Positions 7,964-36,040 of a stretch of 64,000 bases of DNA are shown piece by piece. The stretch comes from Providencia alcalifaciens (GTDB lineage: Bacteria > Pseudomonadota > Gammaproteobacteria > Enterobacterales > Enterobacteriaceae). Position 1 is the stretch's first letter. The number at the start of each line of letters is the position of its first letter. The notes beneath the pieces are model-generated. The model was given only the letters and a program-made list of their open reading frames with translations, made no database searches and was not told where the DNA came from. The stretch lies in assembly GCF_915403165.1 (NCBI RefSeq), contig NZ_OU659204.1, positions 2,790,001 to 2,854,000 of the forward strand. Reading direction: 5' to 3'. Position numbers and translations under genes: made by a program.

Positions 7964-8968
7964 TTAAGCGATTTCTGTGTCGCCTTGTAATTGGCAACTA
8001 CACGCCAAAACATAACCGTTAGCAATTTCATCCGCAGTTAATGTCATGGTGCTACTGGTTGTGTAATTCCCCGAAAGCACTTTTGTTTTGCAACTACCAC
8101 ACACCCCTGCGCGACACGCGGCAATCACCGGTTGTTTATTCTGTTCTAACGCAGACAGCAGTGATGTACCCACAGGTACATTGAAGTTCACTAAACGATG
8201 GCGAATTTTTAAGTTCAGCACCTCTTCACTCACGGCCTCATCACCACCCGTAGTAAAACGCTCCATAAAGAAGTGTTCCGCAGGTACGCCCAATGCCTTA
8301 GAAAATTCCTGCACATTTTTCATATACGGAACAGGCCCACAAGTCATTACCACACGGCCATGAATATCTGGTACTAACTCCAGCAGTTTTTCTTGGCTCA
8401 AGCGACCTTGTGCAACACCGCCGTTATCAGGTGTTTCCGGCATGATGCACAGTTGCAAACGCTGCGGATATTGCTGGACCAATCTTTGCCACTCACTGGC
8501 GAAAATGACCTGCTTTTCATCTCGCACATTAAACAGCACTTTGACATCCGTTTCAGGGCGATTCGCCATCAACCAACGAGTCATCGACATAATCGGTGTG
8601 ACGCCACAACCGGCTGCGAGCATTAAATATTGGTGGCTTTGTACATTGGCACACGTAAACTCCCCTTGCGCCTCAGACAACCAAAGATAGTCTCCCGGTT
8701 TCACCGTTCCTGTCAGCCAACAAGAGCCTGCACCCTCGTCTAATCGTCTCACCGTAATGGAGATAAAACGGCTTTGTCCTGGCGATGAAGACAAGGTGTA
8801 AGCGCGCATTACGTCATCACTGTTTTTGATACTCACCAGCGCGTACTGCCCTGGTTCATATTGGTAAAAATCATGATTAATCAGGTTAATTGTCCAAACA
8901 TCTGAGGTTTCCTGCACTATCGAGTGAATTTGCATTCTGTTCGGACATAGGCTTGTTGGCATGGTCAT
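7964..8968 (-). CDS. hcr: NADH oxidoreductase Hcr
   Basis: A 334-residue cytoplasmic flavo-iron-sulfur reductase that passes electrons from NADH to the hybrid-cluster protein Hcp. The FAD domain shows RAYTLSS (about residue 54), the NAD domain shows MLAAGCGVTPIMSM and VVMTCGPVPYM, and a C-terminal plant-type [2Fe-2S] ferredoxin domain shows CRAGVCGSCKTKVLSG plus a distal cysteine pair. The start codon follows AAGGAGTAACCC. It lies 51 bases downstream of hcp in the same orientation, as in E. coli. Confidence 0.96.
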   Translation of the reverse strand: MTMPTSLCPNRMQIHSIVQETSDVWTINLINHDFYQYEPGQYALVSIKNSDDVMRAYTLSSSPGQSRFISITVRRLDEGAGSCWLTGTVKPGDYLWLSEAQGEFTCANVQSHQYLMLAAGCGVTPIMSMTRWLMANRPETDVKVLFNVRDEKQVIFASEWQRLVQQYPQRLQLCIMPETPDNGGVAQGRLSQEKLLELVPDIHGRVVMTCGPVPYMKNVQEFSKALGVPAEHFFMERFTTGGDEAVSEEVLNLKIRHRLVNFNVPVGTSLLSALEQNKQPVIAACRAGVCGSCKTKVLSGNYTTSSTMTLTADEIANGYVLACSCQLQGDTEIA

Positions 8969-9019: not shown

Positions 9020-10672
9020 TTACGCTGGCAGAATTTCCGCCAGATCTTGTTCAACCGTGGTAATGCTGCGCATACCGAATTTTTCATTCAGAATATTCAG
9101 CAGGTTTTCGGTTAAGAAACCCGGAGCCGTTGGACCGGTGTAAATATTTTTCACACCCAGCGCTAGCAGGGTTAACAAGATCACAATCGCTTTTTGCTCG
9201 AACCAAGAAAGGATCAGGCTCAGTGGTAAGTCATTCACACCACAACCTAATTTCTCTGCTAAGTTCACCGCTAACATAATGGCAGAATAGGCATCGTTAC
9301 ATTGACCCACATCCAGTAAACGCGGTAAGCCTTCTAAGGTACCGAAGTCCAATTTGTTGAAACGGTATTTACCGCAAGCCAGCGTTAAAATCAGGCAGTC
9401 TTTCGGTACGCTGCGAGCGAAATCCGTGTAGTAGCTGCGCTCACCACGGCTACCATCACAACCACCGACTAAGAATACGTGGCGTAATTTTTTCTGAGCA
9501 ACGAGATCAATCACCGCATCCGCAGCACCCAGCAGAGTTTGACGACCAAAACCGACAGTAATTTTGTGTTCGATTTCAGTGTATGGGAAGCCCGCCATTT
9601 CCTGCGCTTGCGCTATCATTTCAGCAAAACTGTCGCCTGTAATGTGTTTCACGCCCGGCCAACCCACAATGCTGCGAGTCCAGATACGCGCTTTATATTC
9701 ACCCACATCAGGGTCGATAATGCAGTTAGAGGTCATTAAAACTGGGCCAGGGAATTTCGCAAATTCCACTTGCTGATTCTGCCAACCGCTGCCGTAGTTA
9801 CCCACTAAATGCGCGTATTTTTTCAGTTCAGGATAACCATGAGCAGGCAGCATTTCACCGTGGGTGTAAATATTAATGCCTGTGCCTTCGGTCTGTTCTA
9901 ACAACATTTTTAAGTCTTTCAGGTCGTGACCTGAAATCAAAATGCATTTACCTGCGACTGGACGCACGTTAACTTCCGTTGGAATTGGATGACCAAATTC
10001 TCCCGTTTCGCCTGCATCCAGAATTTCCATGATTTTGAAGTTCATCATGCCGATAGCCATCGCATTGTCGAGCAGCTCATTCATATCCGCAGGCAATGTG
10101 CCTAACCAAGCCATAATTTCATGGTATTGAGCATAAATCTGGTTATCATACTGACCTAAAACGTGAGCGTGCTCCATATAGGCCGCCGCGCCCTTCAAAC
10201 CATACAGGCACAGCATACGTAAGCCATGAATATCATCGCCAATTTGCGCTTTATCGATATCTAACGCAAATTGTGCAGCTTGCTGTTGCAGTGTATCAAT
10301 ATCCTGCCCTGCTAATTGCAGGTTGATCAGCGGGTGGTTAAATGCCACTGCGCTATTCACTGACAAGCAGTGTTTGATTAATTTATCACGCAGATAAATC
10401 GCTTCACGGGCATAACCAATAATACGTTCAGAATCGAAGTTAACGTTGGTCAATGTAGAGAAGAAAGCGCGCGGCGCAAAACTGTCGACATCATGATCAA
10501 TAATGCCCAGTTCACGAGCCACCACCGCACTAGCAGATAAGCTTTGCAGGACAGCAACTAATAAATCTTGCAGGTCTGAAGTTTCAGCGGTTTTACCGCA
10601 CATACCTTGCGAATAAGCGCAGCCATTTGCTGCGGGTGTTTTAATTGTTTGTTCACATTGCACACAATACAT
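9020..10672 (-). CDS. hcp: Hydroxylamine reductase / hybrid-cluster protein Hcp
   Basis: A 550-residue protein, the same length as E. coli Hcp. The N-terminal [18 protein letters not shown] and GMCGK cysteines bind the first Fe-S cluster; later ligands to the hybrid 4Fe-2O-2S cluster lie in the HDLKD, NCIIDP, GGCDGS and LACGKYRFN blocks. Hcp is a high-affinity NO reductase, also active on hydroxylamine, working with Hcr under anaerobic conditions. I take the ATG at 10672 (SD AAAGGGG); an in-frame ATG at 10696 lies inside the NsrR box and is unlikely. An NsrR box and an FNR-like site lie upstream. Confidence 0.97.
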
Positions 10673-21590: not shown

Positions 21591-22232
21591 ATGAAAATAT
21601 CGATCCTAGGAGCCACTGGTTTTGTCGGTAAAGCGTTGGTTTCTGAAGCCTTAATGCGTCATCATCAAGTCACTGCGATCTCTCGTCACAGCAATCAGCT
21701 TCCTCAACATGCTCATTTAATTGCTGAATCTGGAGATATTACGGATGTGGCATGGCTAACATCTCGGCTTAAAGGCCAAGATGTGGTGCTTAGTGCATTT
21801 AATGGTGGATGGAGTAATCCTAATCTGTACCGCGATACTGTTGCAGGAAACCAAGCAATCTTAGAGGCAGTAAAAAAAGCAGGTATAAAACGATTTATTG
21901 TGGTTGGCGGTGCCGGAAGCTTAGAAATCGCGCCAGGTGTTTTATTGCTCGACTCCCCAGATTTTCCAGCCAATATCTGGCCAGGAGCCCAAGCGGTCAA
22001 AGAATTTAAAACGACCTTGGAATCTATCGATAGCTTAGATTGGACGTTTGTTTCTCCTGCCGCAATGCTTGAAGATGGCGCTCGAACAGAAACCTTTCGC
22101 CTTGGTGGAAAACAGCTATTAATGAATGGTAACACCCCCGCAAAAATATCTGTTCAGGATTTAGCGGTGGCGATATTAGATGAGGTAGAGCGGCCACAAT
22201 TTATCCGTCAGCAGTTTACAGCTGCATATTAA
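21591..22232 (+). CDS. NAD(P)H-binding SDR-family oxidoreductase
   Basis: 213 residues. The Rossmann motif KISILGATGFVGKALVSEAL is at the N-terminus; VVLSAFNGGW and KRFIVVGGAGSLEIAPG follow the atypical SDR (NmrA/YwnB-like) pattern, without the usual YxxxK catalytic pair in obvious form. The ATG at 21591 has GGAG seven bases upstream; an ATG at 21567 would add eight unlikely residues. It is 88 bases downstream of the tetR gene and may be part of the same regulated unit. Confidence 0.88.
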   Translation: MKISILGATGFVGKALVSEALMRHHQVTAISRHSNQLPQHAHLIAESGDITDVAWLTSRLKGQDVVLSAFNGGWSNPNLYRDTVAGNQAILEAVKKAGIKRFIVVGGAGSLEIAPGVLLLDSPDFPANIWPGAQAVKEFKTTLESIDSLDWTFVSPAAMLEDGARTETFRLGGKQLLMNGNTPAKISVQDLAVAILDEVERPQFIRQQFTAAY

Positions 22233-22762
22233 TACTAATAAATGGATGACGAGTAAATCATGACTAAATGTATCAATTTATTTGTTTAACATAAAAAGTA
22301 ATACAATCATTAACGTTTAATAAATATTCGTATATTCCCGTATAAAATATGACTATTCACTTATAAATGATTAAATTAAGATTATTATTATTTAAATGCA
22401 GTTAAATTCAGCCATCAATATAATTTAATTTTTTGCGTTATCAATTCACATTAAGACTAGAGTTTTATTTTATTTTTTGACGCGATGATTTTGATGAGCT
22501 TTATGAGACTATTAATAATAGGCAATTATTGTATGCGAGCATTGTATGTGAAAAGTATTACATGCAGGTATAATCTAAAAATAGAGTATTAAGCCGGAAG
22601 AAACAACCTATAATAGTAAAACAGATAATCTCTTCCGGTCAGATGATTAAATTCATGGAATCTCTTTTATAAAAACAGGGTCGAAAATGGAAAATCTTCT
22701 ACTTTCCTAGTGATAACCAACCTTTAAAAATAAATGATTGAAAACATAACACACTGATATTT
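22233..22762. other. AT-rich intergenic region with an 8-bp inverted repeat
   Basis: 530 bases without a gene. An inverted repeat CCGGAAGA (22594-22601) and TCTTCCGG (22631-22638) encloses 29 bases; its GC content stands out from the AT-rich surroundings. It could be a terminator for neither or both flanking genes, or a protein site. Together with the next gap, it suggests acquired DNA. Confidence 0.5.
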
Positions 22763-23017
22763 TTAATGAATTGTACTTCTAGTGCCACTATTTATGTTCA
22801 CAACACCATATAAGAATGATGCAGGTTCTAAGTTAAATAAATACGCAAATTGAAAAAGAGAATCAACATCAATGCAGCTTTCTCCACTCTCGAAACGATT
22901 CATTTCATCCTCAGAGACACCAATTAAATCAGCCGCTTGCTGAAGACTCATTTTATGACTCTCTCTTTGCATACGGATCTTAATCCCTAACTTTTTCGCA
23001 ATTTCATTTTCATTCAT
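22763..23017 (-). CDS. Small XRE-family HTH regulator
   Basis: 84 residues. The helix-turn-helix is clear: IKIRMQRESHKMSLQQAADLIGVSEDEMNRFESGES. The rest (DSLFQFAYLFNLEPASFLYGVV) matches the C-terminal part of the domain. The ATG at 23017 has GGAG six bases upstream. It is similar in size and type to the HTH gene beside the fim operon but not the same. It lies alone in a very AT-rich area and its target is unknown. Confidence 0.85.
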   Translation of the reverse strand: MNENEIAKKLGIKIRMQRESHKMSLQQAADLIGVSEDEMNRFESGESCIDVDSLFQFAYLFNLEPASFLYGVVNINSGTRSTIH

Positions 23018-23980
23018 AAATACTCCTTTTACTATTAGATTGAATACCAATTATGAGGGCAGCTAAATTATCATCACACCAGGTTTAATTAATTGACTTA
23101 CGTTAATAAAACGCGACATACATCACATCATTTAGTGACTTTCATAAATAGATATTTTTCACTTAAAACTGTAATTGGTTGATTTAAATTACAAATAAAA
23201 CCAATCATCCATGTAATATAAAAATAAAAGCGTGATAGAAATCACATAAAATTCAGATTATTACCTGTGTATATTTACTTATCATGCCCATCAAATAATG
23301 ATGTAAGAATTTAATTACTCATTTAATGATGTTCTTCAGCATGAGCTATATTACAAAATCATAAAAACAATGATCAAGGATTATCTTAACTTTTTTCAAA
23401 TAATGATAGCTTACGTTTATATACTTAAATTTATTCTTATATTTTAAATCATCTACTAATGACTTATTCACTAAACAACAAGCAATATCATAATAATAAC
23501 TGACTAAATCATCTATCACTATCAGAATAATTTTTTATCATTTACTTAACTTTTCTCAAATAACTCATTTTGTCATACAAAGTATGAATATCAATGAATG
23601 ATGATTGAATTATATTCATACTAACTGAATCGAGTAACCTATTGAATATTTGCTTTAATTTTATTCATTCGTTAAACGCTTTCATTCTATTTGTATGAAT
23701 AATATTGTTTTTACATAACGACTAATTTAACAAAAAATGCGTTGTAGGCTATCAAAATTTCAGTGTATTCCTAATACGTTATCTCTGTTTAGTCAGCTAA
23801 CTAATCATCATTTAGAGTGATGAAACCCGATTAAAACTTACTTAACTTCACATTGCTTATAAAAAAATTGTCAGTAGACATGCTATCCTATGTTCAATTA
23901 CGATGAGTTTTATCTAACTTTAATGCATAGATTTGGCGCTTAAAATAACGCCTGTTGCAAAAGTGACTGGAAAGGTAACC
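23018..23980. other. Long AT-rich non-coding region before the Rob-like gene
   Basis: About 960 bases, strongly AT-rich, without a supportable gene. A perfect 11-bp inverted repeat AGTATGAATAT (23581-23591) and ATATTCATACT (23612-23622) with a 20-base spacer is present, and a related TATGAATAATATT follows near 23693. These may be regulator sites or H-NS-silenced DNA. No tRNA or mobile element is seen. Confidence 0.5.
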
Positions 23981-24865
23981 ATGCTACAAGAAAGTGTTAT
24001 CAGGGAAATTATTCTCTGGATCGAACAAAATTTAGAGTCGCGGCTCTCCCTTGATACCGTTGCTGATAAATCTGGATACACTAAATGGCACTTTCAACGA
24101 TTATTTAAAACCCAAACAGGTCTCGCGTTAGGTGCTTATATTCGCGCTCGTCGTTTATCCTGTTCTGCGGTTGCTTTGCGCTTAACGAGCGATAGTATCA
24201 TGGATATTTCTCTACGCTATCGTTTTGATTCACAACAAACTTTTTGTCGAGCATTCAAGAAACAGTTTGGTGTAACACCTTCAGAATATCGTAAACGCTC
24301 AGGCTGGCATATTGAAGGTTTTTGCCTTCCTCTGCGTGAAAGTAAAGAACTCGAAGCTCATGTGGAATTAGTTGAATTAAAAGAGATCCACTTAGCGGGA
24401 ATGACACATCGCTACACACAAGGCATTAACGAGTGGAACTTAAAAACTGAAGAGCTACGACGCCAGTATTGGAAAAACTTTTTAGATAAAAACAAGATTG
24501 TTACTAAAAATTTGTATGCTATCCACGGGGTTGATACAAGCTCCGATGAAGAAGGCCGTTTTCTCTACTCCACTGCATTTGATAACAACGATCTTGATGT
24601 CATACCACCATTTACTAAAAAACTGATGGTTCCTGCTGGCAATTATTTGCAAATTAAATTTATCGGTAATTTACAAGGCACTGACTATAACGACATTATT
24701 TACACCGTTTATGGAAAAGTGCTGGCCGAGATGGATATTGCTCGCGGCTTAGGGGCTGATATCGAACATTATGTTTTAAAATCAACACCAACTTATGAGG
24801 ATTTTGTTAGCCACCCTCATACTTACATCCAAGAGCTGAATTACTATATTCCTGTGATTGCCTAG
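23981..24865 (+). CDS. Rob-like AraC-family regulator
   Basis: 294 residues (E. coli Rob 289). The N-terminal DNA-binding domain has both helix-turn-helix units: SLDTVADKSGYTKWHFQRLFKTQTG and the highly conserved IMDISLRYRFDSQQTFCRAFKKQFGVTPSEYRK. From residue 130 there is a GyrI-like effector domain as in Rob. Such proteins bind marboxes and switch on efflux and stress genes. I take the ATG at 23981, after GGAAAGGT; an upstream ATG would add sixteen residues. Several regulator types in Providencia use marboxes (for example AarP), but this is not AarP, which lacks the effector domain. Confidence 0.88.
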   Translation: MLQESVIREIILWIEQNLESRLSLDTVADKSGYTKWHFQRLFKTQTGLALGAYIRARRLSCSAVALRLTSDSIMDISLRYRFDSQQTFCRAFKKQFGVTPSEYRKRSGWHIEGFCLPLRESKELEAHVELVELKEIHLAGMTHRYTQGINEWNLKTEELRRQYWKNFLDKNKIVTKNLYAIHGVDTSSDEEGRFLYSTAFDNNDLDVIPPFTKKLMVPAGNYLQIKFIGNLQGTDYNDIIYTVYGKVLAEMDIARGLGADIEHYVLKSTPTYEDFVSHPHTYIQELNYYIPVIA

Positions 24866-24902
24866 TTCTTATTACTGTATAGCGCCTGTTATCGCATAAA
24901 AA

Positions 24903-24932
24903 CTAACAACCCGCTTTTACACGGGTTGTTAG
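24903..24932. terminator. Terminator hairpin between convergent Rob-like and copper receptor genes
   Basis: Perfect 11-bp arms CTAACAACCCG and CGGGTTGTTAG with an 8-base loop, between two convergent genes; no strong U-tract. Confidence 0.7.
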
Positions 24933-24953
24933 CTTCATTCAGTGCTGAGTAGA

Positions 24954-26996
24954 TTAGAACGTGACGTTCAATTTACCCCAGAATGTTCTACCCGGCTCAT
25001 TAACAGGGCTATTAGACGAATAACCAAATCCGCTATTACCTGCTAAGTTCAAGTGCTCGCTGTACGTTTTATCAAACAAGTTATCGACCCCCGCACTCAG
25101 CTTCACATTTTCATTGATGCGATATGCCGCATTCATCGAAAATACCGTAAAGCCCGCGCTCTCACTGAAGTCTTTTCCGACAACGTTACCTTCGTTGATT
25201 GCCACGCGATCTTGGCGACTCACCATGCGTACCAATCCGGTCGTTGTCCAATCGCCTTTCTCCCACGTTAAACCTAAACGGCTTTCCAACGGTGGCATTT
25301 GAGGCAGTGCACGCCCATCAGTTCTATTTTTCCCCCAAGAATACGCAAGACTTGCATCCGCTTTCCACTCATCGCTGAGTTGATAAGCAACCCCCATTTC
25401 ACCGCCCATGATCATCGCATTGACGTTTTCAACTTGGCTCATTCTGGCGTTAGTTGGGCTATAGCGGAATAAAATAAAGTCATCAACGCGCCCTACATAA
25501 GCGGAAACCCATGCATTGGCTTTATCATCACTGTATTTTGCACCAATATCTAACTGTGTCGTTTTCTCGGTTTTCACGTTGTCGAAAACATTTTTGCTGC
25601 CATTCGGACCCATTTTTGGCGAGAATAACTCCCAATAATCTGGGAATCTTTCTGTATACCCTACCCCTGCGTATAACATCACCGGCGTTTCAGGTAATGC
25701 ATGTTCGTAGCGAACGAATCCCGCTGGCATGACTGTGTTACGACCGGATGATCCCACATCGGTGTAATTATCCACCAATACGCGATCTACACGCCCGCCA
25801 CCAATTACCTTGCCTTGCTCGCTCGCCGTCCAAGTTACCTCACTAAATACCCCATAATCTTGGAATTCGGCATCTTTTTTCCAGCTATTATTATTGTTTT
25901 TACGGTGTTTATTGGTCTGCATATCTGCCCCAGCACGCAGCTCATAATCACGCCATAACCACGTCCCCATGACTCGACCGCCCATCGTCTCGCGGTCAAC
26001 ACGCATTTTCATTGGCATATTCATCATCATGCCGTGCCCGCCATGACCACCGCCCATATGCCCGCCGCCTGATCCCATTGTGCTCATTGGGCTACGCAGT
26101 GAGTAGTTATCCATAATATGGTCGGCGTAGTTGTAGTAAACATTTCCTTCGATTTTATCGAATACATCTCCGATATTGCTTTTCTCGAAACGTAATCCTA
26201 AGCTTTCACGCTTAAATTGAGAGCCATCCATTCCTCGCCCTGCATATCGCGCTTCACCATCACCTTTTCCTGCGGAAAGCTCGAGTAATGTGTATTCATC
26301 CGGCGTCCAGCCCACTGCAACATCCGCATTCCATTTATCCCATTTAGACGGTACTTTGTCTCCGTTACCATCTTTATAGTCATTAGAGCGAGATTTATTG
26401 CCCGTCAGGCGCACATAGCCTTTCTCATTTCCCAAGCTCACATCCGCATTAGCATCCCAACGCTGGTTTGACGCCGTCAATGCACTCGCATTACCTTGAA
26501 TGCCGCCCTCAGTAAAGACAGGTTTTTCACGCTCAAAACGTACAGTACCCGCTGAGTTTCCAGGTCCCCATAATACGGTTTGTGGCCCTTTCACCATGGT
26601 AAGCAAGTCAAAGTTTTCCGGTGAAATATAGGACGTCGGTGCATCCATACGGGAAGGACACGCACCCAACATTTCACTGTCATTCGTCATGATCTTAAGA
26701 CGGGAACCAAACATGCCACGAAAAACAGGGTCACCATTTGTACCGCCATTACGGATTTGGGAAAATCCGGGGATTGTTTTCAAGTAATCAGAGCCATCAC
26801 TCGCCGGTACTGGCTGTCTTGGGGTTTTCGGCGATGTCGAAATAGTTAACGGCGAGTCCACAGGAGCCGTGACAATCATGACCGAGCTATCGGTGATTGA
26901 ACTTTGATTTTCTTCTTTAGCAAAAGTGGATGTTGATGCGATAGCTGAAATCACCAGCGCAGTCACAGGTGAAAATTTAAAATTAATTGAGTTCAT
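24954..26996 (-). CDS. TonB-dependent copper receptor (OprC/NosA-like)
   Basis: A 680-residue outer-membrane receptor. A signal peptide (about 26 residues, ending STFAK) precedes a plug domain with GDPVFRGMFGSRLKIM and the copper signature GACPSRMDAPTSY, where Cys and Met match the CxxxM copper site of OprC; the plug continues LLTMVKGPQTVLWGPGNSAGTVRFE. The barrel fills the rest to the terminal aromatic KLNVTF. A surface stretch at about residues 300-330 is extremely rich in Gly, His and Met. It probably takes up copper; the DUF2946 gene upstream is often its companion. Confidence 0.9.
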   Translation of the reverse strand: MNSINFKFSPVTALVISAIASTSTFAKEENQSSITDSSVMIVTAPVDSPLTISTSPKTPRQPVPASDGSDYLKTIPGFSQIRNGGTNGDPVFRGMFGSRLKIMTNDSEMLGACPSRMDAPTSYISPENFDLLTMVKGPQTVLWGPGNSAGTVRFEREKPVFTEGGIQGNASALTASNQRWDANADVSLGNEKGYVRLTGNKSRSNDYKDGNGDKVPSKWDKWNADVAVGWTPDEYTLLELSAGKGDGEARYAGRGMDGSQFKRESLGLRFEKSNIGDVFDKIEGNVYYNYADHIMDNYSLRSPMSTMGSGGGHMGGGHGGHGMMMNMPMKMRVDRETMGGRVMGTWLWRDYELRAGADMQTNKHRKNNNNSWKKDAEFQDYGVFSEVTWTASEQGKVIGGGRVDRVLVDNYTDVGSSGRNTVMPAGFVRYEHALPETPVMLYAGVGYTERFPDYWELFSPKMGPNGSKNVFDNVKTEKTTQLDIGAKYSDDKANAWVSAYVGRVDDFILFRYSPTNARMSQVENVNAMIMGGEMGVAYQLSDEWKADASLAYSWGKNRTDGRALPQMPPLESRLGLTWEKGDWTTTGLVRMVSRQDRVAINEGNVVGKDFSESAGFTVFSMNAAYRINENVKLSAGVDNLFDKTYSEHLNLAGNSGFGYSSNSPVNEPGRTFWGKLNVTF

Positions 26997-27177
26997 TTTT
27001 AGCCTATTTTTATCTGTTTCTTACTGCCATTGGCTCAATGAGTTAATGACCGCTCGGCTTCTTTTGAAAAATAGCCTAGCCTCCTGAAAATGAAGCTCAA
27101 TTTCAGGATAAGCGAAGTGGTTTTGTCCATTGAAGACAAAATGCAGTTTTAAATTACGTTAAATAAAGAAATAAGAA

Positions 27178-27606
27178 TCAATAGGATGTGGGTGGTGCGC
27201 GAGCTAGCTGTAATGACCAAGGACGGAAAATTCGTAATTGAATACAACGTTCGAAAGGAACAAAGATAGCGAGGGTTGCTAATTGGCGGATCACCGCAGC
27301 AACAAATAAAATCAAAAATGGGAAGTGAACAAGTAGTTGGCAGTAACCACACGCGATGTCTTCCATCGGTGATTGCCCGATTCCCGTCATCAGCATATGG
27401 TTCATCGCACCGCCATCTTCGCAATGTTCAGACAATGGCATTTCGTGATGCTGCTGCATCGAATGCTCCGCTATTTCCCCATGCTCCATCGAGCAGTTAT
27501 TCATGTGTGACATTGATTTTGAAATCAATGGCGCAACGAATAACATCGCTACAGCGAGTAAAGCAAGATAAGCGGCAAATTGTCGAATCGCGTGACGTAA
27601 ATGCAA
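27178..27606 (-). CDS. DUF2946 family protein, Met/His-rich
   Basis: 142 residues. A hydrophobic N-terminus (AAYLALLAVAMLFVAPLIS) precedes a Met- and His-rich segment of residues 30-70 (SMSHMNNCSMEHGEIAEHSM; QQHHEMPLSEHCEDGGAMNHMLM), then the family core DIACGYCQLLVHFPFLILF and a second membrane segment, ending RAPPTSY. DUF2946 proteins are found next to copper receptors. The start appears to be TTG at 27606 (SD GGA); the first ATG is inside the first hydrophobic segment. A periplasmic copper-binding role is inferred. Confidence 0.8.
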   Translation of the reverse strand: MHLRHAIRQFAAYLALLAVAMLFVAPLISKSMSHMNNCSMEHGEIAEHSMQQHHEMPLSEHCEDGGAMNHMLMTGIGQSPMEDIACGYCQLLVHFPFLILFVAAVIRQLATLAIFVPFERCIQLRIFRPWSLQLARAPPTSY

Positions 27607-27785
27607 CGGTTTTCCGGTGTTTCATAGCCTATAGATGGGCGCAGATTGTATCGTAATAAGAGGCTTATTGTTATTGTTTTTTGGCATTATTGTTAAGGCA
27701 AAATGCAGCTCGCAAGCCTGACAAAAAAACTAACTAACTTGGGTTAGGCAATACAGCGTTAATTAATATTGGTAAAATGTACCCG

Positions 27786-28664
27786 TTAGTTTTTCTTCTT
27801 CAAAAAGACTAAAGCGACACTAGTAAAAATCAAAACCATTCCAATCAACATATTCATGTTTATTGCTTCACCTAAGTAGTAATACGAGATAAGCACACTC
27901 ATCATCGGTGAAATAAGAATCGAATAAGACGATAGTTCAGCCCCGCCATTATCAATCATGTAAAACCATAAAATGTAAACTAATACCCCATTTGCTACAC
28001 CGATAAAAATCACGGGAATCAGCAATTCCGTCATCAATCTACGGTAACTCAATCCATAGCTTGTCAAATCTAAATTGGCAGATAGAAACATCGTAAAAAC
28101 CAATATAATCAAAAATGAAGTGATATTTTGATAAAGCACCTTTGAAAAAACATCAACGTTGACGGCAATGTGTCCTGATAGAAAGGTTCCTAGCGCCCAT
28201 ACAAATGCACTTAGCAATATAATCACTTCACCATAGCTCATCGCATCAAATGAGGTAAAAAACAGAATTCCAAGCCCACAAAGTACCGAGACAACCAACG
28301 AGTTCAAGATTATCTTTCGCTGGCTTATCATCACAAAGCAAGACGTTATCGCTGGCATGGTATAGACCAATACTGACGCCTTAACGGAGTCCGTAAATTG
28401 GAGCGCAATGTTGTTTAATATTGGCACGAGGAACATATTTAAAATGCCAAGAGGAATGCAACGAATAAAATGGCTCGCTATAAATTGCTTTTTATATATA
28501 AAGAAAAATACAAATAAAAGCACCAGCAAAGCTATCAATGCGGAGTAGAATCGGAATACCCATGCCCCAACAATTCCAATACCGATTTTCGAGATCGGAA
28601 ATCCCATCCCCCACAGTATAGATATTATCGCTGCAAATATAATGACCGTATTTTTATGCGTCAT
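27786..28664 (-). CDS. EamA/DMT-family transporter, putative exporter of the RiPP product (PaaC-like position)
   Basis: 292 residues with ten hydrophobic helices in two EamA-like halves, starting NTVIIFAAIISILWGMGFPISK and with GVLVYILWFYMIDNGGAELSSYS near the end, typical of drug/metabolite exporters. The ATG at 28664 lies within the end of the upstream oxygenase gene (overlap of 11 bases), showing translational coupling; an ATG at 28703 would overlap more and has no better site. In this gene set it is expected to export or give self-protection against a peptide product. The local base composition is more AT-rich than the flanking ccm genes. Confidence 0.85.
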   Translation of the reverse strand: MTHKNTVIIFAAIISILWGMGFPISKIGIGIVGAWVFRFYSALIALLVLLFVFFFIYKKQFIASHFIRCIPLGILNMFLVPILNNIALQFTDSVKASVLVYTMPAITSCFVMISQRKIILNSLVVSVLCGLGILFFTSFDAMSYGEVIILLSAFVWALGTFLSGHIAVNVDVFSKVLYQNITSFLIILVFTMFLSANLDLTSYGLSYRRLMTELLIPVIFIGVANGVLVYILWFYMIDNGGAELSSYSILISPMMSVLISYYYLGEAINMNMLIGMVLIFTSVALVFLKKKN

Positions 28665-29337
28665 ATCGAGCAACCACAGCCATTCTTTTAGCGCCTCTAA
28701 CACCTACCGAATTCACCATTGAGACAAAATGGGGAATACTTTTTTCTCCCGTATCAATAATTAATGTACTCAAATACGTTGGTACTAATGCTTCTATGAT
28801 GTTTTCTTTCTGTTTATCCAAAATAAAAGTCAAGCCACCATGGTTACGTTCCCAACCTTTCGTAAAGTTAATGACAATATTAATGCAGGAACCTGAGTCG
28901 CAGTGTGTGGTTAGGAAATCCCCTAAATCAAACCAGCTTAAATAACATAGCGATAATTCATTGATACTTTTTTCCGTTATTTCAGACAGAAAGGATTTGA
29001 ATTCTGTGCTATCTAAAAAGGTCTTAATCGCTAAAAAGGATGAAACCTCGTTTCCTTGTTGATTATCGGTTATTCGCCTAAATGAATAACAGAAATTCCC
29101 CTGATGGTATTCTTGCATTGCTTTTTCTTTTTCTTGTTCTATCTCGATATTAGGATGCTTATTTATAAAATAATCCATTGGACTAGATTTATTTTTTATA
29201 ATAAATGACCATTCAGAATCATTAATATCAAGAAAATCATCATAAAATTTATCTAACTCTGAAAAGTATTGTTCGATAGGAAACTGAACATATCCTTTGT
29301 TATTAAAGCTATTAGTTAACTCATGAATTTCTCTCAC
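28654..29337 (-). CDS. Fe(II)/2-oxoglutarate-dependent oxygenase-like protein (PaaB-like position)
   Basis: 227 residues. The C-terminal half has the double-stranded beta-helix pattern: SWFDLGDFLTTHCDSG gives H145-x-D147, PHFV gives the distal H203, and KRMAVVARYD gives Arg218, the usual 2-oxoglutarate contact. The spacing and the GGLTFIL middle match prolyl-hydroxylase-like enzymes. The gene overlaps the upstream ThiF-like gene by four bases. It probably oxidises the modified peptide. A non-oxygenase role is possible, but the HxD...H...R set is complete. Confidence 0.82.
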   Translation of the reverse strand: MREIHELTNSFNNKGYVQFPIEQYFSELDKFYDDFLDINDSEWSFIIKNKSSPMDYFINKHPNIEIEQEKEKAMQEYHQGNFCYSFRRITDNQQGNEVSSFLAIKTFLDSTEFKSFLSEITEKSINELSLCYLSWFDLGDFLTTHCDSGSCINIVINFTKGWERNHGGLTFILDKQKENIIEALVPTYLSTLIIDTGEKSIPHFVSMVNSVGVRGAKRMAVVARYDA

Positions 29338-30449
29338 AAAAGCTCCTCTGTCATTTTAAAATCTCTTAGCGAAAAGAATATTTTCCTATTTTTCAATACC
29401 ACATCATCATAGCCAGTAATTAACTTAACAATTTGGTCTGTTACTAATCCTGACATGACTGCAAGAGATGGTGTACTTTGCCAAGCATTCACTTTTCTCT
29501 TTCCATTTAAAAACTGGTGTTTCATTCTTGCTAATTGAAATTTTTCAACTTCATGATTCTGGCTATAGAATTTATTTCTAATATTATTTTTTACCGCATG
29601 ATAACTTGAATTATGCCCATCATTTAAATAAATAGGCCCAACCGAAATATCTAAAGGGTCTCCCCCCAATTCAATTACCGGTATTTCTTTTTCATGGGCG
29701 ATATCATGAATGACACCTTCAACTGTATTTTTTCTAAAATAACCTAAACTGGCCCATGCAATTAAAATGACATCTACGCCATCTAAAATTTCCATCAACC
29801 GATCTCTATCCGTCGTTGCAAACTCGTTGTACTTCTCAACCTTGGTATATCTATTATGCCGTTTAATACCTATTTCAGCAGCTTCAACTTTCGCGCTTCC
29901 AATATCATCAAAAGTATAAAGAACTTGCCTGTTTAAGTTAGAAAGCTCAACGACATCACCATCTACCAATCTCAATGTGCCTATACCTAACATAGCTAAC
30001 TGCATTGCACACCAGGTCCCCCATCCCCCCATACCTAAAATCAAAACTCGACTATTTTTGAGTTTTTCTTGGTACTTTAAACCACCTACTTTTTGACTAT
30101 CAATTAACGAAAACTGTAATAACTGCCTATCATATAAATTTATTTCTTGTTGACTAAGAATATCCGAATAAGTATCTGAAATTTCCATGACGTCTAACTG
30201 ATTAAGCTTATTAATAAACTCAATAATACATTCTTTATCAATATTAAACCCTAAAGATTTCAATTCCTTTACTATTCTGGGGATAGTATGCTCTCCATCA
30301 AGTTTGGGTAATAACGATATAACCCACTCTTCCGGACTTTTAATAATGCAACCCTTTTGTGGTATTTCCCCTATGCAAATATCACCATCATCAGATATTA
30401 AAATATGATGTGAGCATTTAATTAATGGTTTTAGTAGCGAAAAATCCAT
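29334..30449 (-). CDS. ThiF/MccB-like adenylating enzyme of a RiPP cluster (PaaA-like)
   Basis: 371 residues. Residues 1-100 form a small N-terminal domain, probably a peptide-binding clamp; the E1-like fold follows with YDRQLLQF (106-113), the ATP loop LILGMGGWGTW (137-146), DGD (163-165), NLNRQVLY (171-178) and Lys187. There are no paired CxxC motifs for a zinc, unlike ThiF and MoeB. It is closest in architecture to MccB (microcin C7) and PaaA (pantocin A), which adenylate or rearrange residues of a precursor peptide. It starts 52 bases after the small peptide gene ends, in the same direction. Confidence 0.88.
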   Translation of the reverse strand: MDFSLLKPLIKCSHHILISDDGDICIGEIPQKGCIIKSPEEWVISLLPKLDGEHTIPRIVKELKSLGFNIDKECIIEFINKLNQLDVMEISDTYSDILSQQEINLYDRQLLQFSLIDSQKVGGLKYQEKLKNSRVLILGMGGWGTWCAMQLAMLGIGTLRLVDGDVVELSNLNRQVLYTFDDIGSAKVEAAEIGIKRHNRYTKVEKYNEFATTDRDRLMEILDGVDVILIAWASLGYFRKNTVEGVIHDIAHEKEIPVIELGGDPLDISVGPIYLNDGHNSSYHAVKNNIRNKFYSQNHEVEKFQLARMKHQFLNGKRKVNAWQSTPSLAVMSGLVTDQIVKLITGYDDVVLKNRKIFFSLRDFKMTEELL

Positions 30450-30501
30450 ATTTAGCCTCCATTAAGAAAAGCCGCATTTAGCGGCCATTCAATATAACTC
30501 G

Positions 30502-30603
30502 TTATTCTAACTCGATAGATTCATCTTCGTTGTACATCGCATTCTCTTCATTAATCGCAGAGACTCGTTCATTAAGAATAATGAATTCCATACTTATACT
30601 CAT
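30502..30603 (-). CDS. Putative RiPP precursor peptide with internal Glu-Glu-Asn
   Basis: A 33-codon gene, too small for routine gene finders. The ATG at 30603 has GAGG 8 bases upstream (GAGGTAACTTTT-ATG) and the frame ends TAA at 30502. The product begins MSISMEFIILNERVSAIN, then E19-E20-N21, then AMYNEDESIELE. The size and internal EEN match the 30-residue pantocin A precursor PaaP, in which an internal Glu-Glu-Asn becomes the bicyclic antibiotic. The ThiF-like gene follows after 52 bases. It is a prediction: no homology search was run and the sequence outside EEN cannot be aligned from memory. Confidence 0.75.
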   Translation of the reverse strand: MSISMEFIILNERVSAINEENAMYNEDESIELE

Positions 30604-30927
30604 AAAAGTTACCTCGCACATTATTTAATATAGGATTTTAACAAACTGCGCATTAAAGTTAATTAATATAACAACGCTCTGTCAATGATTATTTAAACAA
30701 TAAAAAAATATAGTTATCTAAATATAGATTTAAATATAAAAACAACCAAAAAAAATAACGTTAGTAAACAACTTAATCTATTGATAGCAAATAAAGTTAA
30801 ATGAAAAAAATAATGAACCAATAAAATATCGTGACTTTTTTTTTATAATAGAACATCTAAAAAATATTATTTTAAAACCCAATTCTATTTTTAAGTTTAT
30901 TCCTCTTTTTACATATTGATTTCATAA
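30604..30927. promoter_or_regulatory. AT-rich leader/promoter region of the RiPP cluster
   Basis: About 320 very AT-rich bases. On the minus strand a perfect -35 TTGACA lies at 30680-30685, but I cannot fix one -10 with normal spacing (several TATATT-like sites follow). The low GC is continuous with the cluster and contrasts with the ccm genes, as expected for acquired DNA. Confidence 0.45.
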
Positions 30928-30952
30928 TAAAGGGAGCCGAAGCTCCCCTTAT
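30928..30952 (-). terminator. Terminator of the ccm operon
   Basis: AAGGGGAGC and GCTCCCTTT pair around a TTCG tetraloop on the minus strand, followed by ATTATG; it lies about 40 bases after the ccmH stop and separates ccm from the peptide cluster. Confidence 0.8.
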
Positions 30953-30986
30953 TCAATCACATTAATACCCGACACCCCGAAAACCG

Positions 30987-32060
30987 TTATTTCCCTTCCG
31001 GTGCCTCTTTCTTCTCATGCAGCATCATCAGCGATTGCTCGACACTGCGTTCAATAATCTCTCGGCGCTGATCATTTTCAGGCAGCAGCTTTAACATCAT
31101 CTGCCAAGCCGAAATTGCTTCGGGATAACGCCCTTGCTCGAACGCATTGAAGGCAAATATGCTGAGCGCTTTAACGTTAGTTCGATTTTTGGCAATCAGC
31201 TTTTTGAGTAGCTCATTACCTTCTTGGTTATCACTTGGGTCTGACGAACGGGTTAATACCTCCGCATAGCCTAATGCGACTGCATCATCGTCCGGGGATA
31301 AGCGGTAAGCACGCCCATAAGCATCGGTTGCCATGGTGGCGTTCCCTAATACCATCCCAATGCGACCGAGCATCACCCAGCCATCAATATTTTGCGGATC
31401 GTCCTGAAGGCGAGTACGTAACCCTAAAGCCAAGTTCTCCATCTCTTCATTATTCAGTGGAAGTTCATTAGCATTCAGCGCTCTATCTAACAATGCTGGC
31501 GCTTGTTGGTAAGCCACATTCCAATCTTTCACTTTGCTGTAGCTACCCACTTCATAATACGCCGCACCTGCAACACCCAGCGCTATCACAATGCCAGGGA
31601 CATACACCCAAGCACTCGCACGGCTAGCTTCTGGCAGCAGTTCGTCATCATCATCGTGAGCAACTTGGCTGGCTCTGACGCGCTTTTTAGAACGAGCATA
31701 AATCAACCATCCCCCAACGGCGATAGCCACAAATGGCATTCCCCATAACATCACGGTTAATGGTGTTAATGGCGGGTTATACGTCACGAAATAACCATAT
31801 CTCGCGACCATATAATCGACGATTTCATCGCGGTTTTTTCCCTCTTGCATCAGCTCATACACTTTCTGGCGCAAATCGAGAGCGATCATCGAGTTCGAAT
31901 CAGCAATACTGTTGTTTTGGCATTTCGGGCAACGTAACTCTTCCGTCAACTTACGAAATTGCTGCTCTTGCTGTTCATTTTCGAACGTGAAAACTTCCGT
32001 GGAAGCCAAGCTTACACCTGCGCTGAGCGCCCACATCATCAAGGCAATCACATATTTCAT
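30987..32060 (-). CDS. ccmH: Cytochrome c maturation protein CcmH (CcmH-CcmI fusion)
   Basis: 357 residues (E. coli 350). A signal peptide, then the apocytochrome-thiol domain with LRCPKCQNNSIADS (the redox CXXC), a membrane segment near residue 110, a second near residue 150, and a C-terminal periplasmic TPR domain (DAYGRAYRLSPDDDAVALGYAEVL) equivalent to CcmI. It holds apocytochrome c ready for heme attachment by CcmF. It overlaps ccmG by four bases. Its paralogue in the window is the fused NrfFG. Confidence 0.95.
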   Translation of the reverse strand: MKYVIALMMWALSAGVSLASTEVFTFENEQQEQQFRKLTEELRCPKCQNNSIADSNSMIALDLRQKVYELMQEGKNRDEIVDYMVARYGYFVTYNPPLTPLTVMLWGMPFVAIAVGGWLIYARSKKRVRASQVAHDDDDELLPEASRASAWVYVPGIVIALGVAGAAYYEVGSYSKVKDWNVAYQQAPALLDRALNANELPLNNEEMENLALGLRTRLQDDPQNIDGWVMLGRIGMVLGNATMATDAYGRAYRLSPDDDAVALGYAEVLTRSSDPSDNQEGNELLKKLIAKNRTNVKALSIFAFNAFEQGRYPEAISAWQMMLKLLPENDQRREIIERSVEQSLMMLHEKKEAPEGK

Positions 32061-32614
32061 TGATTTGCCTCCTTGCTATAACGATCCCACAGCGGCTTCA
32101 ACTCGTTTTGCCAAACTCGTTCATCAACTGCACCGGCGTGGCGATAACGAATAATTCCTTGCCCATCAATTAAAAAGGTTTCAGGCGCGCCATACACACC
32201 GAGATCAAGCCCCAGCATCCCTTGCCCATCGAATAAACTTAATGCGTATGGATTACCCAATTCGCGCAGCCAGCCGATCGCTTTTTGGCGATCATCTTTA
32301 TAATTCATCCCCACAACGCGGATCCCTTGGGATGCTAACTGATTCAAATATTGGTGCTCAGCACGGCAAGTCGGGCACCATGTCGCCCATACATTCAATA
32401 AAATAGGTTGCCCTTGGATCAGTACCTTGGTGTCATATTCCTGCCCCGGATTTTCCAAGGATTCCAAACGGAAAACAGGCACTGGCTTGCCAATCAAAGC
32501 AGACTCTAGCAAGCGGGGATCGTCCCCTTCAGCATTACGTACCAATTGCCATAACAGCACGGCTGCAATCGCCGCAAAGATAACAAAAGGAATTAAAAAA
32601 ACTTTGCGATTCAT
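32057..32614 (-). CDS. ccmG: Thiol:disulfide interchange protein CcmG (DsbE)
   Basis: 185 residues. An N-terminal membrane anchor (VFLIPFVIFAAIAAVLLWQL) precedes a thioredoxin fold facing the periplasm with the active site WATWCPTCRAEH and the acidic GVYGAPETFLIDG near the cis-Pro. It reduces the CXXCH cysteines of apocytochromes c. It overlaps both neighbours by four bases. Confidence 0.96.
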   Translation of the reverse strand: MNRKVFLIPFVIFAAIAAVLLWQLVRNAEGDDPRLLESALIGKPVPVFRLESLENPGQEYDTKVLIQGQPILLNVWATWCPTCRAEHQYLNQLASQGIRVVGMNYKDDRQKAIGWLRELGNPYALSLFDGQGMLGLDLGVYGAPETFLIDGQGIIRYRHAGAVDERVWQNELKPLWDRYSKEANQ

Positions 32615-34542
32615 ACAGCTTCCCCTTGCAGCTTGCGACGACGATAACGCGAGTCAAACAGGCAGCATAACGCGCCTATTGCCATAAATACCCCACCCGC
32701 CCAAATCCAGCGGACAAACGGTTTATAGTACAAACGCAGGGTCCACACATTTGGGGAGATCTCCTCCCCCAACGCCGCGTATAAATCACGAGTGATCCCG
32801 CCATCAATAGCCGCTTCCGTCATCACTGAACGGCTAGTGCTATAAAAACGTTTCTCTGGATGCAACGTGGTGAGCACCTTGTCATTCTCTTTCACGGTGA
32901 TAGTGCCAATCACCCCTTGATAGTTTGGCCCATCTGCTTCATGTACCCCATTAAATACAAAGGTATATCCGCGAATGGCAATACTGTCATCGGGTTTCAT
33001 TTTGACATCACGTTCAATACTGTAATTCTGGCTAAAGGCGATCCCCACGATAGTCACCGCTAAACCAAGGTGTGCCAGTACCATTCCCCAATAGCTTGAG
33101 GTCAGTTTGATTTTTTTACTGATACGCACCTTCATTTCAGCAAAGGCTAAAATAACAATCCAGCACGCCATCATTAAGCCCAGCACTGTCAACGCTTCAA
33201 CTCTGTCTTGCATTAACCAAGGCAGTAAGAAAGAAAGAATCAATGTCAGCACTAACGCCATCAGCAGTAATTTGCGAATAGCCGCAGGACGGTCACGTCC
33301 CCAACGCACTAGCGGTCCAATACCCAGCAATAGTGCAAACGGCACCATCAAGGCAATAAACATAGTGTTGAAGAACGGTTCACCAATGGAAATCGTTCCC
33401 AAACCAAGTTGTTTATGGATAAGTGGCAGCAATGTACCTAACAACACCACCAACATGGCGGCTGTCAAAATCACGTTATTGCCCAATAGCAGGGATTCCC
33501 GAGACCATAATGCGTTGTTCACCTTAGAGCGTACTTTATGACCGCGAATCGCAAAGACTAACAGCGAGCCACCGATCACCAACACCATAAAGGCAAGAAT
33601 AAATAGCCCTCGTGCGGGGTCTGAAGCAAAAGCGTGCACCGAAACCAATACGCCTGAGCGGACTAAGAACGTGCCCAATAAGCACAGTGAGAAGGCAAAT
33701 ATCGACAATAATAGCGACCATGCTTTGAAAGTGGCTCGCTGCTCAGTGACTGATAATGAGTGGATTAAGGCCGTCCCCACTAACCATGGCATAAACGAGG
33801 CATTTTCGACCGGATCCCAAAACCACCAGCCACCCCAGCCTAATTCGTAGTATGCCCACGCCGACCCTAACATAATCCCCAGCGTTAAGAAGAACCATGC
33901 TGCTAGCGTCCAAGGACGTGCAAAACGGGTAAAGGAGCTATCTAAGCGCCCACTGAGTAATGCTGCAATCGCGAAGGCGAAGGCTACCGAGAAGCCCACA
34001 TAGCCCATATACAGTAATGGCGGGTGGAAAATCAGTCCCGGATCTTGCAGCAGAGGGTTTAAGTCACGGCCTTCAATCGGGAAAGATGGCAAGGTGCGAG
34101 AGAATGGATTTGAGGTAAAAATGATAAACAGCAAAAAGCCGACACTCACCATCCCCATTACCGCCAGCACACGCGCCACAATATCCAGAGGCATACGGTA
34201 ACTGAATAACGCCACCGCAAATGTCCAGCCGCTCATTAGCAGCACCCACAGCAACAGTGACCCTTCATGAGCGCCCCATGTTGCCGCCACACGATACCAA
34301 ATCGGTAATTGTGTATTGGAGTTATTTGCCACGTAGGTAACGGAGAAATCATTCACCACAAAGGCATTGATCAACACCAAAAATGCCCCTGCGATACAAA
34401 GAAACAGCAACCATGCTAATGGTCTAGATGCCGCCATTAGGCGGGCATCATTACGCGCCACGCCCCATAGAGGATAAAAAGAGAGTAATACAGAGACCCC
34501 TAATGCTAAACACAGCAGGATATTACCAATCTCAGGGATCAT
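32611..34542 (-). CDS. ccmF: Heme lyase subunit CcmF
   Basis: 643 residues with about 14 membrane helices and the WWD domain [20 protein letters not shown] that binds heme at the periplasmic face. The conserved [15 protein letters not shown] and a periplasmic domain near residues 530-600 are present. It ligates heme from holo-CcmE to apocytochromes. The NrfE protein further right is its paralogue. Overlaps ccmE by four bases. Confidence 0.97.
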
Positions 34543-35018
34543 GATGCATTGTCCTTATACATTGCAGCTGGACGTTTATGGTTTTCTTGCATCGCTTGCT
34601 CAATTTCTGGCGGCGTGTAGTTTTCATCATGTTTGGCTAACACTTCTTTCGCCATCACATGGTTATTCGGTTCTAATTCCCCTTGTACCACCACACCTTG
34701 CCCCTCTTTAAATAAATCAGGCAAGATACCGTCATAGCTGACATCAATTTCGGCTTCCGCATCATAAACGGTAAAAGTCACTTTCAGCGAGTCTGGGTCG
34801 CGCACAACAGTTCCTGGCATCACCATGCCTCCGACACGTAGACGCTGTCCAACTTCAGGGACTTTTTGGGTTTCCCGCTTCCCATAAATCACTTCACCGG
34901 GAGTATAAAATAGGTCGATACTGGAACTTAAGGCGTATAGCACCAATGAAAAAGTCAGCCCAACACCTAAAATAATGGATGAAACCAACCACAGTCGGTT
35001 ACGGCGACGAATATTCAC
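34539..35018 (-). CDS. ccmE: Heme chaperone CcmE
   Basis: 159 residues. An N-terminal anchor ([22 protein letters not shown]) and a beta-barrel with [15 protein letters not shown], ending [20 protein letters not shown], in which the histidine of HDENY forms the covalent heme link. It carries heme from CcmC to CcmF. It overlaps ccmD by four bases. Confidence 0.97.
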
Positions 35019-35227
35019 ATCCCCTCCCTACGCGCTCTAGCGGCTTTTTGTCTTGCTTCTCGCGCTTGTTGCTGAACAATCGCGCTAAAAATCATTTTTC
35101 GTTGAATATAGGTATGGATGCACAGTGCCGTTAATGGCAAAAGGGTTAGCGCAACTGCTAACCAAACATAAAATCCATATCCGCCCATGGCGATAAAGTC
35201 ACTCCAAGAGGCAAAAGCACTATTCAT
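35015..35227 (-). CDS. ccmD: Heme exporter accessory protein CcmD
   Basis: 70 residues: one membrane helix ([27 protein letters not shown]) followed by a strongly basic tail ([18 protein letters not shown]). It helps release holo-CcmE from CcmC. It overlaps ccmC by eight bases. Confidence 0.94.
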
Positions 35228-35963
35228 GATGGTTCCCTCGCTTAGTCATCAGTTCCAGTACCCAAGGTCGGTTACGCTCTAACATTAATAGCTGGTTACG
35301 CAGACGAATTAGCGTCAACGAAATAAACAGGAATAAATACCCCAGAATAGCTAAACGTAATGGTGTACGCATCGCTGGATTAATGCTTTCTTGCATACGT
35401 GTTGATGGTTGATGCAGGGTTTGCCACCACTCAACTGAGTAGTGAATAATAGGCAAATTGATCACCCCAATTAACACTAAAATGGCAGCCGCTTTTCCTG
35501 CTGTTCGGCGGTCATCAAAAGCGTGCCACAAGGCAATGATCCCAACATATAAAAATAACAGGATCAATTCAGACGTCAGACGCGCATCCCATACCCACCA
35601 AGCTCCCCACATCGGTTTACCCCATGTGGCACCGGTGACAAGCGCGATAAAGGTGAATACAGCGCCGACGGGTGCCATTGCAGCAATGGCTAACTCAGAA
35701 ATTTTCATCTGCCAGACAAGGCCAATGAACGCAGTGATAGCCATAGTGGCATAAATCCCCATCGACCACATGGCCGCAGGGACATGAATATAGATGATCC
35801 GGTAGCTATCACTCTGTGTTTTATCGGTTGGTGCAAAACCAAAGCCCCAAACCCAGCCCACCGCCAGAAAGATAACACTTAACATAATGAACCATGGAGC
35901 CAGTCGCCCACATATTTTATAGAGGTTCATTGGAATTGCTAATTGGTGAAGCTTTTTCCACAT
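35220..35963 (-). CDS. ccmC: Heme exporter/handler CcmC
   Basis: 247 residues, six helices, nearly the length of E. coli CcmC and matching it from MWKKLHQLAIPMNLYKICGR on. The WWD motif is WGAWWVWDARLTSELILLF, with the heme histidines in IHVPAAMWSM and NLPIIHYSVEWW. It loads heme on CcmE. It is the first ccm gene here: no ccmA or ccmB precede it, and the space to napC is only 136 bases. The operon seems to have its own promoter. Confidence 0.96.
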   Translation of the reverse strand: MWKKLHQLAIPMNLYKICGRLAPWFIMLSVIFLAVGWVWGFGFAPTDKTQSDSYRIIYIHVPAAMWSMGIYATMAITAFIGLVWQMKISELAIAAMAPVGAVFTFIALVTGATWGKPMWGAWWVWDARLTSELILLFLYVGIIALWHAFDDRRTAGKAAAILVLIGVINLPIIHYSVEWWQTLHQPSTRMQESINPAMRTPLRLAILGYLFLFISLTLIRLRNQLLMLERNRPWVLELMTKRGNHHE

Positions 35964-36040
35964 AGTTAATAGCCCCGATTTATCTCACAAAATGCTGTGC
36001 ATTAATATTAGCTACAATACACAAAAACCACGTAATTTTA

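Follow-up and report, generated by a model that had tools for sequence, protein, structure and literature searches.

A probable paaPABC-type pantocin A cluster acquired by a Providencia lineage

We analyzed a 64,000-nucleotide stretch of the Providencia alcalifaciens genome (hereafter, the window; contig NZ_OU659204.1, positions 2,790,001 to 2,854,000), in which positions 27786-30603 hold a short peptide gene and three protein genes, all on the minus strand and read in one direction. These four genes resemble paaPABC, the cluster for the antibiotic pantocin A in Pantoea. The three protein genes overlap at their neighboring ends by a few bases: the paaB-like gene starts with a GTG that overlaps the paaA-like stop, and the paaC-like gene likely starts at an ATG at 28664 that overlaps paaB, its reading frame being open to a GTG at 28703 and ending with a stop at 27786. 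The peptide gene stops 52 bases before the paaA-like gene. The features of the locus are as follows:

30502..30603, minus strand: paaP-like precursor gene (TIGR04310, E 2.1e-12, 46.1 bits)
30470..30486, minus strand: GC-rich hairpin of 6 pairs followed by TTTCTT, a possible partial terminator (terminator-like site, spacer fold)
29334..30449, minus strand: paaA-like gene, 371 aa, RRE plus ThiF/E1-type adenylating domain (PF21475, PF00899, PDB 5ff5)
28654..29337, minus strand: paaB-like gene, 227 aa, predicted 2-oxoglutarate-Fe(II) oxygenase (fold model, conserved residues, homology to Pantoea PaaB)
27786..28664, minus strand: paaC-like gene, 292 aa, predicted EamA/DMT exporter (PF00892)
27698..30923, no strand: stretch absent from close relatives, an inserted or exchanged segment, 33% GC (blastn vs five cluster-free sites; GC)
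30929..30950, minus strand: hairpin after ccmH, probable ccm terminator and edge of the acquired stretch (sequence; similar hairpins in empty sites)

The precursor gene has 33 codons and its own ribosome site, GAGGT, seven bases before the ATG. Its peptide matches TIGR04310, the NCBI model for 'pantocin A family RiPP', well above the cut-off of 35 bits. The leader contains FIILNERV, with F7, L10, R13, and V14 at the motif positions; the core is E19-E20-N21, its first Glu six residues past the Arg, and the follower is AMYNEDESIELE. In PaaP of Pantoea, the leader motif is F4-L7-R10-I11 and the core E16-E17-N18, as given in a review (PMC12250964). The motif spacing and the Glu-Glu-Asn core are thus identical in the two peptides, with Val14 here in place of Ile11, although the Pantoea precursor has 30 residues. 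In a sister genome that carries the same cluster (G009), 12 bases are absent and that ribosome site instead serves an ATG at codon 5, giving a 29-codon gene. Seven of the 29 shared codons differ between the two precursor genes; six of these differences are silent and one exchanges Ile for Val. Because the differences are mostly silent, the peptide gene is evidently translated, which counters the possibility that the peptide is never made. The gene is also conserved together with the enzymes, as a precursor with the motif lies directly upstream of paaA in 20 of 21 related loci. The remaining locus, an Amycolatopsis PaaA relative (L019), has a different repeat peptide there: a 71-aa open reading frame upstream of position 8001 in which two stretches around Ala-Asp-Gln-Gly resemble each other and a Glu-Glu core is lacking, perhaps a substrate of other chemistry.

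The paaA-like protein carries an RRE domain (PF21475, 83.7 bits, E 6.1e-24, cut-off 27) and a ThiF domain (PF00899, 4.2e-40). It matched the crystallized PaaA (PDB 5ff5) over residues 5-368 at E 4.5e-134, and the match to the best MccB entry covered part of the protein only, at E 7.9e-15. R174 and K187, reported as important for PaaA activity (PMC12250964), are invariant in 18 of 18 aligned PaaA-type proteins. The E1-type ATP loop is present as GMGGWGTW, and the five cysteines are scattered, with no CxxC pair for zinc anywhere in the protein.

The paaB-like protein scored below the Pfam cut-off, and its assignment as an oxygenase comes from a fold model and from invariant residues. A model from one sequence (pLDDT, the predicted local distance difference test score, 35.2) was discarded; with an alignment, the score was 94.0, and the protein models as a 2-oxoglutarate/iron oxygenase. 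H145, D147, H203, and R218, the complete HxD...H...R set for iron and 2-oxoglutarate, are invariant in all 16 sequences aligned, which comprise the window and 15 relatives but omit L022, G009, and G012, three more genomes or loci with a paaB match. The protein is homologous to Pantoea PaaB at E 6.8e-37. The paaC-like protein matches PF00892 in two stretches (8.3e-30, 104.3 bits, cut-off 28.2), is homologous to Pantoea PaaC at E 1.3e-40, and is 57% identical to the product of a neighboring gene in the Photorhabdus australis cluster. The review already assigns PaaB to the 2-oxoglutarate-Fe(II) oxygenases and PaaC to the EamA transporters (PMC12250964). In one acidobacterial locus with a Glu-Glu-His precursor (L015), a PhyH-type oxygenase gene at 9145-10047 adjoins paaA, and the locus has no PaaB match.

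A preliminary description made from the letters of the window had proposed a pantocin-like cluster, and its gene-level claims were largely borne out. The four same-strand genes and their overlaps, the 33-codon gene with its ribosome site, the ATP loop without zinc pairs, and the iron/2-oxoglutarate residues all agree with our results, and the third protein, described there as a ten-helix exporter, is a predicted exporter by its EamA match. The TIGR04310 precursor, the PaaA, PaaB, and PaaC counterparts, and the shared gene order in relatives support the proposal further.

The same description held the cluster to be probably acquired, and a survey of 24 Providencia genomes points the same way. 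Five of these have strong PaaA matches (G000, G003, G007, G009, and G012), four of them with the RRE domain; G003 is P. burhodogranariea DSM 19968 and G007 is P. rettgeri RB151. The ccmH gene was found in 23 of the 24. In the five cluster-free genomes with the ccmH closest to that of the window (G022, G023, G002, G001, and G014), the ccm side (window positions 30924 to 30987) and the DUF2946 side (27686 to 27735) are 95 to about 270 bases apart, compared with about 3.2 kb in the window. G009 has the cluster at the same site, with 93.4% identity over 10 kb and 94-98% DNA identity in the three enzyme genes. The G012 and G007 clusters adjoin an ABC-transporter operon, and that of G003 lies at yet another site (gene names assigned by eye). 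Because chromosomal sites differ among these genomes, the cluster has either moved more than once or been lost and regained. Two of the Providencia loci look incomplete: RB151 (L014/L027/L045) is missing the N-terminal parts of PaaA and PaaC, and in G012 (L024/L043), paaB matches are in pieces.

The claim that the cluster is more AT-rich than its neighbors also stood. Its genes have 32-38% GC, compared with 47-48% in the two neighboring genes measured, and the cluster as a whole has 35% compared with 43% in the rest of the window. Still, of 612 sliding windows of cluster length, 28 (including some that overlap it) match or exceed its AT content, which makes composition by itself weak evidence of acquisition. 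Another stretch, at 22000-24000, has 26-32% GC, more AT-rich than the cluster, and ends near an AraC/GyrI-type regulator gene. The proposal that the ccm terminator bounds the cluster stood in part: a terminator-like hairpin does lie at about 30929-30950, and the same kind of hairpin stands in three empty sites (L047, L048, and L050), but a consensus scan did not report it. Inspection of the edges by eye, with no dedicated repeat search, showed neither direct repeats nor an integrase. On the far side, positions 24954-27606 hold a gene for a TonB-dependent receptor that has a Met/His-rich stretch, beside a DUF2946 gene; the pair, which may serve in copper uptake, adjoins ccmH in close cluster-free relatives.

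The cluster is rare and patchy. Samples of genomes, each counting the window's own, gave 2 with the cluster among 392 of the family, 2 among 369 of the class, and 1 among 394 of the order; in the genera of L017 and L002, it was present in 1 of 398 and 2 of 12 genomes, which are the known loci themselves. Phage carriage was rejected, as a phage collection gave no matches at E up to 1e-20. Plasmid carriage was likewise set aside, since at E up to 1e-40 there were only four distant records (three Sinorhizobium and one Vibrio), all below 60% identity. The Vibrio plasmid peptide is already annotated 'pantocin A family RiPP', indicating that public pipelines recognize such clusters. A search for RNA families within 24000-36000 gave none at the gathering score.

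Taken together, we conclude that the window very probably holds a complete paaPABC pantocin A cluster acquired by a Providencia lineage, with pantocin A or a very close analogue as its product. This conclusion draws on the genes, homology, motifs, the PaaB fold model, peptide conservation, and acquisition, and the chemistry, target, and export described here are carried over from the Pantoea literature. The ribosome would make the short peptide, and the PaaA-like enzyme would bind its FxxLxxR(V) leader through the RRE domain. The ATP-using domain would then activate the two core glutamates, leading to two dehydrations and a decarboxylation that form a bicyclic core, to which the PaaB-like oxygenase would add a conjugated double bond. 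Host proteases, not encoded in the cluster, would trim the leader and follower to leave the bicycle joined to Asn, and the EamA protein would export the product and protect the producer. The product would enter neighboring bacteria by a tripeptide transporter and act against them by inhibiting histidinol-phosphate aminotransferase. Since the core is Glu-Glu-Asn, the most likely product is pantocin A or a compound very close to it.

Several observations weigh against this interpretation. Identity to the Pantoea proteins is about 55% for PaaA (~45% diverged), which leaves room for a different product, and about 34% each for PaaB and PaaC (~66% diverged, as measured on P. brenneri L008). The Foldseek matches of the PaaB model were mostly hydroxylases; a VIA-align comparison was a second look at Foldseek's own match list. 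The residue ahead of the core is Asn, whereas other relatives with Glu-Glu or Asp-Glu cores, G009 excepted, have Thr or Ser, and the window and G009 sit in a Morganellaceae PaaA clade of Lys and Ile types (see below). A convincing promoter was not found by consensus scan (22 promoter-like sites compared with 18.4 expected), and terminator-like sites were not enriched (4 found compared with a shuffle mean of 2.8). The hairpin between paaP and paaA is weak, with 6 pairs, and the longest stem in this spacer is equaled in 28% of shuffles; the spacer as a whole folds at z -2.6.

Given the divergence of PaaA, PaaB, and PaaC, another oxidation state or another trimming is possible, and the cluster could make a pantocin-family compound other than pantocin A, with the same PaaA chemistry and a different oxidation, trimming, or target. 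The low PaaB identity, the hydroxylase-like model, and close relatives with other core residues (Lys, Ile) are consistent with this. However, the core is identical to that of pantocin A, and the iron and 2-oxoglutarate residues of PaaB are all kept, and we therefore regard a different compound as unlikely. A decayed, silent cluster is also conceivable, as decay seems to have affected the RB151 and G012 copies in the genus. Here, all four frames are intact, the enzyme genes remain nearly identical to those of G009, and the paaP changes are mostly silent; a silent cluster is thus very unlikely, and this cluster is intact and probably working.

MccB has zinc CxxC pairs and modifies a short precursor at its C-terminal Asn. 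A microcin C-type cluster, in which the ThiF-like enzyme would join a nucleotide to that Asn, would fit the shared superfamily, the RRE domain, the MccB entry among the matches, and a hairpin placed as between mccA and mccB, but it is extremely improbable and was rejected on the match scores (E 7.9e-15 for the partial match to MccB, compared with 4.5e-134 for PaaA) and on a core Asn that is internal (position 21 of 33, the last residue being Glu), with the TIGR04310 match and the PaaB and PaaC counterparts also against it.

Among the related loci, the third core residue varies. Asn occupies this position in the window and G009, in Edwardsiella, Enterobacter, Pantoea, and Shewanella, and on the Vibrio plasmid. 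Lys cores occur in three Photorhabdus loci, in P. burhodogranariea, and in Pseudomonas, and Ile cores in RB151 and G012. Four loci from rhizobia and Stenotrophomonas have Asp, three loci have Ala, and single loci have Ser and His; the core of L011 is Asp-Glu-Lys. That paaPABC is kept in diverse genomes and that Lys, Ile, or Asp can replace the core Asn has been described previously (PMC12250964). A tree of 22 PaaA proteins required two changes for the Asn label and three for Lys, and the counts were the same when only well-supported branches were considered. The tree omitted L019, L022, L072, and duplicate copies of genomes already included; its RB151 row was partial, and with some long branches, its deep joins are unsure. 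The Asn core stands in two separate PaaA lineages, for which convergence and ancestral retention are indistinguishable with so few sequences.

The Lys type is accompanied by an additional gene. An M32-family carboxypeptidase gene (PF02074, 381-388 bits) follows paaC in five of five Glu-Glu-Lys loci, at these positions:

10657-12093 in L002, L003, and L004: M32-family gene (PF02074)
10648-12072 in L005: M32-family gene (PF02074)
10315-12153 in L017: M32-family gene (PF02074)

HExxH is present in the three M32 proteins checked. The gene was found in none of 19 non-Lys loci, which comprise the window, G009, G012, and RB151 (all searched genome-wide), 14 further loci, and the Vibrio plasmid (annotation only); they include L011, a possible counter-example given its Asp-Glu-Lys core. 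L019, outside this count, likewise has no M32 gene, and the DNA examined past paaA was about 5 to 8 kb per locus. The Pseudomonas M32 protein is 31-32% identical to the others, and the Pseudomonas PaaA lies in another clade. In an M32 search of 18 genomes, four Lys genomes (L003's not included) had the cluster copy only, eight had no M32 gene, and six had a higher-scoring M32 elsewhere (Pantoea, Edwardsiella, Enterobacter, Shewanella, Aquabacterium, and a Hyphomonadaceae). Because the window's genome has no M32 gene, the Asn type does not need this enzyme. Its absence there and from the genomes of the four Asp-type loci also speaks against M32 as a family-wide maturation protease. In the Lys type, M32 may serve in trimming or self-protection.

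The hairpin between paaP and paaA is a second feature that recurs among relatives. In the window, GCCGC pairs with GCGGC, one G-T pair adds to the stem, and TTTCTT follows; on its own, this hairpin is no better than chance. Across 22 paaP-paaA spacers (the window and 21 loci, leaving out L014, whose spacer is deleted, and L019), 19 were more stable than shuffles at z -2 or lower (exceptions L009, L013, and L020), and 19 had an uninterrupted stem of at least 9 pairs with G-T allowed (exceptions the window, L026, and L015). In L006 and L011, 5% of shuffles matched the stem length. Stem sequences differ between lineages, and as the rows include many close relatives, independent cases are fewer than 22. 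Microcin C clusters have a terminator in the same place, and their precursor is produced far in excess of the enzymes (PMC6495379). By analogy, the hairpin here may favor production of precursor over enzyme.

These observations could be joined in a tentative picture, which we consider possible rather than probable, of pantocin-type clusters as modular weapons in which the third core residue is swapped to change the target and matched accessory genes follow. The Lys-specific M32 would act in maturation or self-protection, and a lineage-specific hairpin would set the precursor-to-enzyme ratio as in microcin C.

The gene set and its roles are already in print for Pantoea. The pantocin A list of a blastn survey comprises Pantoea, Dickeya, an unknown Pectobacteriaceae, and Edwardsiella, with Providencia not among them; the survey's abstract counts Morganellaceae among the families with some of the twelve clusters surveyed, though the pantocin A rows do not include this family (PMC11350110). 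Our results add Providencia as a predicted producer of an antibiotic of fire-blight biocontrol strains, and the diverged PaaA, PaaB, and PaaC are useful for learning what these proteins need. No enzyme for trimming the leader and follower is named in the review's section on pantocin (PMC12250964). The related loci offer a testable clue to trimming or self-protection and suggest a family-wide setting of precursor dose. In the titles and abstract openings searched, there was no Providencia pantocin, M32 gene in a pantocin cluster, or inter-gene hairpin; the primary PaaA papers were outside this scope, and prior mention is possible. The M32 gene beside Glu-Glu-Lys clusters and the hairpin in most relatives examined may be new observations.

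Compared with known systems, the Providencia cluster shares with paaPABC of Pantoea agglomerans the gene order, precursor motif and core, RRE-ThiF enzyme with R174 and K187, 2-oxoglutarate-Fe oxygenase, and EamA protein, but lies in another host genus and at another site. The Photorhabdus and P. burhodogranariea clusters (L002-L005) have PaaA 64-66% and PaaC 50-57% identical to the window's and nearly the same follower, but their core is Glu-Glu-Lys and the M32 gene is added after paaC. The P. rettgeri RB151 and G012 clusters come from the same genus, with PaaA 62-63% identical, but have a Glu-Glu-Ile core, another chromosomal site, and partly broken genes. The mccA-mccB system of microcin C is alike in its RRE-ThiF enzyme, tiny precursor, and terminator hairpin after the precursor gene, yet differs in its chemistry and its seven-residue peptide and, to our knowledge, has no 2-oxoglutarate oxygenase.

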